37,905 nt of DNA, taken from positions 1 to 37,905 of the forward strand of contig CABZHT010000003.1 of the NCBI GenBank assembly GCA_902525615.1, written 5' to 3'. The stretch comes from an uncultured Fidelibacterota bacterium. GTDB lineage: Bacteria > Fidelibacterota > Marinisomatia > Marinisomatales > Marinisomataceae. The notes under the pieces were generated by a model. That model did no database searches, was not told the origin of the DNA, and saw nothing but the letters and a program-made list of their open reading frames with translations. The translations under genes and the position numbers were made by a program. Every line of letters starts with the position of its first letter. The first letter of the stretch is position 1. Shown here piece by piece: positions 21,453-24,211 of the stretch.

Positions 21453-23558
21453 ATGCATATTTCAAAATTAGAAATTTTTGGTTTTAAATCTTTTGCAAAA
21501 AAAGAAACCGTTGTATTTGATTCAGGTATAACAGGCATTGTTGGCCCAAATGGTTGTGGTAAAACAAACATCGTAGATGCAATAAGATGGGTTTTGGGTG
21601 AGCAAAAAACTAAGAGATTAAGAAGTTCAAAAATGGAAGATGTGATTTTTAATGGTGCTTCTAATGTAAAACCATTAGGTCTATGTGAAGTTTTTTTAAC
21701 AATTGAAAATAATAAAGGATTGTTACCAGTTGAATATTCAGAAGTTGAAATTGGAAGAAGATTGTATCGTTCTGGTGAAAGTGAATATTTTATTAATAGA
21801 AATAACTGCAGATTAAAAGATATTTCAAATCTTTTTGTAGATACTGGATTAACCTCAGATGCATACTCTGTAATTGAATTAAATATGATTGAACAAATAT
21901 TATCAGATAAAGATGATAGTAGAAGGCAAATGTTTGAAGAAGCTGCTGGAGTAAATAAATATAAAACCAAAAGAAGATCTGCTTTGAAAAAGTTTGATTT
22001 GAATTCAAGAGATTTAGAAAGAATTGATGATATTATCTTAGAAATTGAAATTCAAGTCAAGGCATTAGATTTGCAATTAAAAAGATTTAAGAGACATGAA
22101 AAACTTACAAGCGAATTAAAAGAATTAGAGCTAGATCTAGCCTCAGCAAGAATAACTGATCTTGAGAATGTTATTTTACCTCTTGAGGAAATGTTAAAGA
22201 AAAAGAATAAAGTTTTACAAAAAACTACTTCTAAAAAAGAAGTTGAAAGTGTTGAATTTGATAATTCCAGAGAAGCATATTTAAAAGAGAAAGAATCTTT
22301 AGTAACAATGAAAGCAAAAGTTGATAAGCTTACAGAAAAGCTGCTTTCGGAGATTCAAGAAAAGAATCAAGAGTCATCCAAAGGTGTCGGATTGCTCGAG
22401 GAGGAACTTCAGAAAAAGATTAATCAACTTAACCAGTTTGATAAAGATTATATTAAAATTGTCTCAAATCAAGATGCAACTAAAAGCTTGTCAGATGAAA
22501 GCAGGGAAAAATTCAAAAATAAAAATTACACTGTAATTGAAACTGACAAAAAATATGAAAAATTAAAAGCAAGCATACAAGACTATAAAGATAAAATAGA
22601 TAAATATAGAAAAGAGCAAGAATTTGATTTTTCAAAAATGGATGAATCTATTAAAAAAATTCAAGACCAAATAAATTCAAATAATCTAGATTTAGAAAAA
22701 AAAGAGAATGATGTAAATAAGGCATTTATCAAAATGGAGACAATAAGAGCAAAGCTTGATTCTGATAAATTCAGTAAAGATGATCTTTTTTATGAAATAA
22801 AAGAAGCTGAGATGAAAATTGCAGAATCAAAAATAAAAAAAACCCAAATAGAGCAGAATATTATTGAAAAGTTTGGAAATGATGTTGTTTTAAGAGATGT
22901 AAAGGATTACAACATTTCAGATATGGTTTTTAGGGTAGAAAAAATAAAGAGAAGTATTGATTCTATTGGTCCAATTAATTGGGCAGTCAAAGATGAGCAT
23001 GAAGAAAAAACTGCAAGACTAAATAATCTTTTGGAACAGAAAGCTGATTTAATTGATGCCGAAAATAATTTAAAAGAAGCTATTAAGAAAATTGATATTG
23101 TTGCCCAAGAACAGTTTTTTGATACATACAACCAAGTCAAAGAAAATTTTGAAACTATGTTTACAGTGTTTTTCAATGGGGGTAAGGGTTCAATTGAATT
23201 ATCAGATCCTAATGATCCTCTAAATTCTGATATAAATATTTTTGCTCAACCTCCTGGAAAAAGAAATAATTCCCTAAAGATGTTATCTGCTGGAGAAAAG
23301 TCCTTAACTGCAATTGCATTACTTTTCTCAATTTATCAGTACAAGCCAAGTCCATTTTGTATTTTAGATGAAATTGATGCGCCTCTTGATGATATAAATA
23401 TTAAAAAGTTTACTGATGTGATAAAAGATTACAGTAAAACTACTCAATTTATTATGGTAACTCATAATAAATTGACAATGGAATCAGCAGATTGTATTTA
23501 TGGCGTTACAGCTGAAAAACAAGGAATTTCAAAACTTATGTCCATTGATTTTTCATAA
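21453..23558 (+). CDS. smc: SMC-family chromosome ATPase, unusually short and apparently hingeless
   Basis: 701 residues, against about 1150-1200 for bacterial SMC. The N-terminal head is complete: FGFKSF, Walker A GPNGCGKTN (31-39), VLGEQKTKRLRSSKMEDVIF and RRLYRSGESEYFIN. The C-terminal head is also complete: SIGPIN (504-509), signature LSAGEKS (611-617, Ala where LSGGE is usual), Walker B FCILDEIDA (635-643) and VTHNK (H671). Between them, residues about 171-500 are almost entirely charged coiled coil with only three Gly (311, 313, 475), one Pro (243) and no Cys. There is no room for the hinge of about 150 residues and no zinc hook. The frame is intact throughout. Neither scpA nor scpB is in the window. 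It lies between a HIT gene and rpsP. Family membership is certain; how it dimerises is unknown. Confidence 0.93.
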   Translation: MHISKLEIFGFKSFAKKETVVFDSGITGIVGPNGCGKTNIVDAIRWVLGEQKTKRLRSSKMEDVIFNGASNVKPLGLCEVFLTIENNKGLLPVEYSEVEIGRRLYRSGESEYFINRNNCRLKDISNLFVDTGLTSDAYSVIELNMIEQILSDKDDSRRQMFEEAAGVNKYKTKRRSALKKFDLNSRDLERIDDIILEIEIQVKALDLQLKRFKRHEKLTSELKELELDLASARITDLENVILPLEEMLKKKNKVLQKTTSKKEVESVEFDNSREAYLKEKESLVTMKAKVDKLTEKLLSEIQEKNQESSKGVGLLEEELQKKINQLNQFDKDYIKIVSNQDATKSLSDESREKFKNKNYTVIETDKKYEKLKASIQDYKDKIDKYRKEQEFDFSKMDESIKKIQDQINSNNLDLEKKENDVNKAFIKMETIRAKLDSDKFSKDDLFYEIKEAEMKIAESKIKKTQIEQNIIEKFGNDVVLRDVKDYNISDMVFRVEKIKRSIDSIGPINWAVKDEHEEKTARLNNLLEQKADLIDAENNLKEAIKKIDIVAQEQFFDTYNQVKENFETMFTVFFNGGKGSIELSDPNDPLNSDINIFAQPPGKRNNSLKMLSAGEKSLTAIALLFSIYQYKPSPFCILDEIDAPLDDINIKKFTDVIKDYSKTTQFIMVTHNKLTMESADCIYGVTAEKQGISKLMSIDFS

Positions 23559-23641: not shown

Positions 23642-24211
23642 ATGGCAACAAAAATTAGACTTAAAAGAATAGGTCGTAGAAACAGACCTTTTTATAGAAT
23701 TATAATTATTGATTCAAGAAAAAGAAGAGACGGCTCTGCAATTGAGCAAGTAGGTTGGTACAACCCAATTGAAAGCAATAAAGAGAAAAATTATGTCCTA
23801 AAAGAAGAAAGAATTCTTGAATGGTTAAAGCTTGGTGCGCAAGTTACAGACCCTGTTAACAAGTTAATGAAGAGATCAGGATTAGCATACAGATGGCATT
23901 TAATGAAACAGGGATTATCTGAAAAAGAAATTGAGAAAGCTGTTGAAGAATGGAAAAAAGAAAGAGATAAGGTAATCCAAGATAGAATTAAAGCCAATAA
24001 GGACAAAAAAGAAAAATTAAAAGCTGATAAATCTGCTGCCAAAGTTGCCGAGGAAGCACCTGCAGAAGAAGTAGCTGAAGAAGTAGCTGAAGAAGCACCT
24101 GTAGAAGAAGTAGCTGAAGAAGCACCTGCAGAAGAAGTAGCTGAAGAAGTAGCTGAAGAAGCACCTGCAGAAGAAGTAGCTGAAGAAGCACCTGCAGAAG
24201 AAAAAAAATAA
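23642..24211 (+). CDS. rpsP: 30S ribosomal protein S16 with long acidic C-terminal tail
   Basis: A 189-residue S16; the usual core is about 80-90. The core has IRLKRIGRRNRPFYRIIIID at the start and VGWYNP, then a helical region rich in Lys/Glu (about 95-135). From residue 137 the chain becomes a repetitive Ala/Glu/Val/Pro tail ending in EEKK. Long tails on S16 are seen in Bacteroidota-type genomes; the function is unknown. It follows smc after 83 bases, which is enough for a promoter, though none is convincing, and precedes trmD. Confidence 0.96.
   Translation: MATKIRLKRIGRRNRPFYRIIIIDSRKRRDGSAIEQVGWYNPIESNKEKNYVLKEERILEWLKLGAQVTDPVNKLMKRSGLAYRWHLMKQGLSEKEIEKAVEEWKKERDKVIQDRIKANKDKKEKLKADKSAAKVAEEAPAEEVAEEVAEEAPVEEVAEEAPAEEVAEEVAEEAPAEEVAEEAPAEEKK
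24050..24205 (+). repeat. 66-bp tandem repeat, about 2.4 copies, encoding the S16 tail
   Basis: Copies at 24050-24115 and 24116-24181 differ at only two positions (GAG/GAA in the first codon; GTA/GCA in codon 18), and a partial third copy begins at 24182. Each copy encodes 22 residues built from EEAPAEEVA and EEVA blocks. The unit is a multiple of three, so copy-number change would keep the frame. The near-identity of the copies suggests recent duplication or homogenisation. Confidence 0.88.

Follow-up and report, generated by a model that had tools for sequence, protein, structure and literature searches.

SMC complexes are commonly described as joined at a hinge, which is regarded as their dimerisation, DNA-gate or DNA-binding part. 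The window, i.e. the whole stretch of 37,905 nucleotides analysed here, encodes an SMC protein that seems to have none (Table 1). Is this the product of a functional gene, and what occupies the tip of its arms if the hinge is gone?

Table 1. Features of the hinge-less SMC gene, with positions in the window and the evidence for each.
Feature	Position	Strand	Evidence
Hinge-less SMC gene, 701 aa + stop	21453..23558	+	ATG start; TIGR02168 716.1 bits, cut-off 567.35
N-terminal head half, aa 1-167	21453..21953	+	AF2 model; PF02463
Walker A, aa 31-39, GPNGCGKTN	21543..21569	+	sequence
N-terminal arm helix, aa 168-340	21954..22472	+	AF2 model
Apex module, aa 336-360, Cys-free in the window	22458..22532	+	family alignment; CxxC or CxxC-x9-CxxC in 14/23 congeners
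Hairpin turn, aa 341-348	22473..22496	+	AF2 model, low pLDDT 44-50
C-terminal arm helix, aa 349-474	22497..22874	+	AF2 model
C-terminal arm base + head half, aa 506-701	22968..23555	+	PF02463; AF2 model
Signature motif, aa 611-617, LSAGEKS	23283..23303	+	sequence
Walker B, aa 635-643, FCILDEIDA	23355..23381	+	sequence
H-switch His671	23463..23465	+	sequence

The SMC equivalog profile TIGR02168 aligns with both ends of the protein and leaves the middle of the model unmatched. A previous sequence-only reading had listed a full set of ATPase motifs, and Walker A, signature, Walker B and His671 are all found where it placed them; the last we take to be the H-switch, following that reading. A re-count of residues 171-500 gives the composition it had noted: three Gly (243, 311 and 313), one Pro (475) and no Cys. 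The proposed absence of the hinge also holds, as the hinge model (PF06470) has no match in the protein at E values up to 1, in a Pfam search that does find SMC_N, and none at E ≤ 0.01 in the genome of the window. The span between the head halves is much shortened, as claimed: Walker A and Walker B are 604 residues apart, versus 1063-1109 in 72 distinct full-length cores of relatives. Alignment with full-length relatives shows that about 470 residues are missing. Most form a central block corresponding to the hinge and the distal arms; in this alignment another ~34 and ~38 of them fall at opposing points along the two arms, in coiled coils where the placement of gaps varies with the aligner. 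One claim did not survive the comparison. The Ala of LSAGE had been seen as a deviation of the short protein, but 20 of 32 full-length SMCs have Ala at this position too, against 7 with Gly and 4 with Ser (one was unread). We read the gene as coding for the chromosomal SMC of a marine Marinimicrobia lineage with a reduced genome, a protein whose hinge is gone and whose arms are shortened.

We predicted the fold with AlphaFold2, using the protein and 19 aligned relatives (mean pLDDT 78.7, pTM 0.51). The model has an ordinary SMC head, one long helix, a turn with pLDDT below 50, and a second helix leading back. When it was compared with the PDB using Foldseek, ranks 1 to 22 were all SMC, cohesin or condensin chains and the first Rad50 came at rank 23. 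At 0.15 nm per residue, the longer arm helix would measure about 26 nm. Two candidate turns had been put forward from the sequence. The Ser/Asn/Asp-rich stretch 338-350 stands, with the predicted turn (341-348) inside it, whereas G311-V-G313 is ruled out by the position of that turn and by the positions of Cys in relatives. In the model of L046, a sister protein with two CxxC motifs, residues 338-363 form a loop between long helices, also with pLDDT below 50.

The initial observation came from a single genome, and one could suspect an assembly deletion or a decaying pseudogene. We therefore turned to the family of the window (f1, Marinimicrobia/SAR406), represented here by 24 genomes, all of one genus and mostly of 0.6-1 Mb; several have isolate names of the AG-/AH- kind and are presumably single-cell genomes. 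The short gene is present in 23 of them. It forms one complete frame of 688-740 codons in 20, which is the conservation of length that the sequence-only reading had proposed to look for. Three copies are incomplete: in G017 and G009 the gene stops at the end of a contig, and in G001 it is split in three frames, the one case that would suit a decaying gene. The short SMC was not found in G022, whose genome is 72% complete. Sister genomes with a hinge-bearing SMC had been named as one finding that would overturn the reading: the hinge model matches 0 of the 24 f1 genomes, against 12 of 17 genomes from elsewhere in the order. The dN/dS of the whole gene is 0.04-0.07 in eight pairs, as estimated by a simple counting method and with dS above 1 in three of them, which shows that the short SMC gene is under purifying selection. 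Along with the ATG start, the lack of internal stops and the 20 complete frames, this bears out the idea that the intact frame of 701 residues makes a real product. The recurrence of the same length class in separate genomes and the purifying selection exclude an assembly artefact and refute the reading as a deletion or pseudogene, to which we give practically no weight.

In the order as a whole, at least 120 of the 130 genomes have a match. From the matches listed outside f1 we took 17 frames that are short or broken. Each of them runs off the end of a stretch or contig or breaks within a longer gene, so that there is no complete hinge-less SMC among these 17. A scan of viral contigs with L046 gave 44 pattern matches, with no relative among them.

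If the short protein acts as a chromosomal SMC, its partners would be expected in the same genomes. ScpA, ScpB and ParB are each detected in 21 of the 24 f1 genomes (some matches are partial), and each in all eight f1 genomes with completeness of at least 90%. The search for scpA and scpB that had been advised for the genome of the window (G000) finds both: ScpA at C1:247111-247758 and ScpB at C1:246611-247078, in adjoining genes of 240 and 176 aa. ScpB exceeds its NCBIfam cut-off; ScpA exceeds that of Pfam and lies below those of its NCBIfam models. The second smc that was also to be looked for does not appear among the PF02463 matches of this genome, the others being one MsbA-like ABC transporter and four matches in frames of 222-249 aa. 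Neither Rad50 nor RecN is among these matches (the genome is 89% complete).

The apex of the protein corresponds to residues 336-360 in the f1 alignment, and the 23 readable tips take three forms. Seven have two CxxC motifs 13 residues apart, seven have a single CxxC, and nine, including that of the window, are Cys-free. No Cys was found elsewhere in the arms of the f1 proteins screened. The lack of Cys had been taken to exclude a Rad50-type zinc hook. This is correct for the sequence of the window but not for its clade, where 14 of 23 congeners have CxxC at the apex. Because the motif is found at the same apex in so many of them, it seems that the hinge first gave way to a cysteine hook and that the Cys-free tip of the window is derived. 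This order of the apex types is tentative, as the placement of G003 within f1 differs between two head trees. Since nine of the 23 species have no apex Cys, the hook is not indispensable in them; zinc shortage in surface water would be a speculative cause of its loss.

Several observations bear on how this module evolves. At four of the six aligned columns of apex Cys, the codons TGT and TGC both occur. CxxC occurs in only two of the 72 distinct full-length cores, inside the hinge in both. One more CxxC each is seen in two incomplete frames that bear a hinge, the broken L226 (in the hinge) and the contig-cut L234 (in the C-terminal arm), and these placements look like the product of chance. 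No Rad50 hook family of Pfam has a match in the hook-bearing SMCs at E values up to 10. Their best Pfam match at the apex, with a double zinc ribbon, has an E value of 0.062 and stays below the cut-off. On the quick tree, the apex states need five changes over 22 rows. The apex of G002 (L021) is Cys-free although its nearest kin carry two CxxC. Over the apex block its DNA is 55% identical to that of these three sisters, compared with 78-90% in the remaining blocks. To four Cys-free species it is 80-81% identical over the apex, compared with 60-83% in the remaining blocks. These values would fit a recombination of the apex inside smc. The two CxxC units have 20-25 of 39 identical bases in five species and 11 of 39 in G003 and G009. 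A duplication of 13 residues as the origin of the two-CxxC tip is thus unproven, because of the low match in the latter two. ScpAB is present alongside each of the three apex types.

A second group of hinge-less SMCs is found in another order of the same class. Two of the three genomes of genus g47 (family f16) encode an SMC of 867 aa (the proteins are 76% identical), scoring 711 and 722 bits with TIGR02168. Neither has a hinge match, and each has one conserved mid-arm CxxC (CKYC or CKFC, at residue 428). No SMC was found in the third genome. ScpA is present in the g47 genome G175 and was not found in G176, which is 80% complete and carries the 867-aa SMC. The arms would be about 185 residues long in f1 and 267 in g47, a rough estimate that depends on assumed head borders and enters none of the arguments here. 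In trees made from the heads only, f1 falls inside its own order and g47 groups with f16, f18 and f19, and hinge loss amounts to two changes on the head tree. Constraining f1 and g47 as one clade gave an AU p of 0.00427 on the careful tree (51 of the 56 rows) and 0.0451 on the quick tree (56 rows). The head trees thus give two origins of hinge loss and speak against a single one.

In the same phylum, neither an SMC (only weak TIGR02168 matches) nor ScpA was found in 11 of 24 genomes searched (G160-G164, G166, G167, G169, G173 and G174 of f16, and G177 of f17). In these other Marinimicrobia, SMC-ScpAB appears to have been lost altogether. Genome G165, which lacks ScpA, contains an archaeal-looking SMC (L173, G165:C2:20934-23924, a frame of 1002 codons that runs off the end), and this contig is possibly a contaminant.

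How does the protein compare with known systems? It resembles the canonical bacterial SMC of SMC-ScpAB (TIGR02168 type) in its head motifs (Walker A, signature and Walker B), its equivalog profile, the presence of genes for ScpA, ScpB and ParB in the genome, and a head phylogeny within its own order. It differs in that it and its sisters lack the hinge (PF06470) and have arms of about half the length, with an apex that is a bare turn in the window and CxxC in sisters. Rad50/SbcC, which works with Mre11/SbcD, resembles only the sister proteins, by a coiled-coil hairpin with CxxC at the apex. The protein of the window has no Cys in residues 171-500 for such a hook, and its head scores far below the cut-off of the Rad50 profiles (50.3 bits with the best model versus 700). 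The archaea-specific SMC-related proteins ClsN/Sph are also short and, in the available text of PMC9389158, mostly zinc-hooked. They are archaeal, and their model NF045487 gives 52.6 bits for the window and 94.2 for L046, below its cut-off of 300.

The closest precedents come from the laboratory and from another phylum. According to the available text of PMC5344682, B. subtilis grows normally when the hinge of its Smc is replaced by the Pyrococcus Rad50 zinc hook, i.e. as Smc(Zh). Like the sister proteins, this Smc(Zh) keeps the heads and arms of an SMC and has a short CxxC module where the hinge would be. Unlike them, it is a laboratory chimera; the sisters are natural, have shorter arms and do not match the Rad50 hook model. 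The same text gives an arm of 344 residues for B. subtilis Smc, with function again at 253-267, and natural arm-length modes of 238, 341 and 515 (minor ones at 163 and 423). The reverse swap has been made in Rad50, as described in the accessible part of PMC6969161. Given both swaps, an SMC-ScpAB ring closed by a hook is a plausible mechanism. The hinge-less state by itself is already known in another phylum, because PMC12153180, in its available text, reports SMCs of marine Actinobacteria without hinge and states that CXXC is absent; its main text mentions neither ScpA nor Marinimicrobia. The protein of the window shares the features of these actinobacterial proteins (marine origin, SMC profile, no hinge, no CXXC), but it falls in its own Marinimicrobia order in the head tree.

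We propose, and consider it probable, that the protein is part of an SMC-ScpAB complex in which a Rad50-like cysteine hook took the place of the hinge on at least two occasions, and that the lineage of the window later lost this hook. In the ancestor of f1, the hinge and the distal arms (~470 residues) would have been lost and the arm helices joined as a hairpin of about 26 nm, with a short cysteine hook at the apex made of one CxxC or of two CxxC 13 residues apart. The end closed by the kleisin should be normal, as no ATPase motif is missing from the heads and both ScpA and ScpB are retained in the genome. In the hook-bearing congeners, two SMCs would join at the apex by sharing Zn2+ between CxxC motifs, as in Rad50, and the hook would close the ring in place of the hinge. 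One CxxC offers two of the four zinc ligands, and a second chain would therefore be the simplest source of the others. The apex would be a small module of variable length, exchanged among lineages by recombination. In the Cys-free variant of the window there may be no stable apex joint, the pair being held by the heads and ScpAB, or there may be a weaker contact between tips; dimerisation through heads, coil tips or a partner protein, as the sequence-only reading had it, may thus apply to this variant. We infer zinc binding and dimerisation at the apex from zinc chemistry and the known hook of Rad50, and would expect a complex with ScpAB and DNA entrapment or loop extrusion. The broader view, that a zinc hook took over from the hinge of SMC-ScpAB two or more times in the phylum, that the hook is mobile and that its loss leaves a working condensin-like complex without an apex dimerisation domain, seems to us evenly balanced.

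Some of this evidence could be read otherwise. RecF/RecN-like ATPases dimerise only at the heads. The short SMCs might do likewise, through ATP and ScpAB, with the Cys of the sisters forming a zinc ribbon in cis that caps the hairpin. The window and eight other species have no apex Cys, four Cys of one chain suffice for a site in cis, the double zinc ribbon matches weakly and every apex type co-occurs with ScpAB, all of which would agree with this reading. Yet in seven species of f1, as in the two proteins of g47, there is only a single CxxC, which cannot alone complete a site of four Cys. The second set of ligands must then come from elsewhere, most simply from another SMC, and we regard dimerisation only at the heads as unlikely. 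It is also conceivable that the hinge was lost once and that the gene, or its middle, passed between the lineages of f1 and g47. Both groups belong to one phylum, the apex recombines within f1, and the AU p on the quick tree is only 0.045. The p value on the careful tree and the separate positions of the two groups argue against such a transfer, as do the lengths (867 versus about 700 aa) and the unlike surroundings of the CxxC motifs, which make it quite improbable. Finally, the short SMC could have taken an end-tethering role in repair, like Rad50 or RecN, and ScpAB would no longer work with it. The Rad50-like apex of the sisters and the lack of Rad50 and RecN among the matches of G000 could be cited for this role, to which we give very little credence: the SMC profile scores far above those of Rad50 and RecN, and ScpA, ScpB and ParB are retained.

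We found neither a natural hook-bearing bacterial SMC nor a hinge-less SMC of Marinimicrobia in the open literature searched, which leaves most subscription papers and preprints outside. New here is the series of CxxC motifs at the apex, along with the second origin and the connection to ScpAB. Under the proposed SMC-ScpAB reading, nature appears to have made the exchange of hinge for hook that had been built in the laboratory. The natural exchange appears to have come with a shortening of the arms by about half, and nine species appear to have lost the hook too. The genus thus offers a ready-made series of proteins with two, one or no CxxC on backbones that are 60-99% identical. With it one can ask at which steps an SMC depends on a joint at its apex, and how the apex and the length of the arms change while genomes shrink.

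A last observation concerns another gene of the window, at positions 23642-24211. It encodes ribosomal protein S16 with 189 aa, in which the S16 domain covers only residues 9-69 and is followed by a long C-terminal extension.
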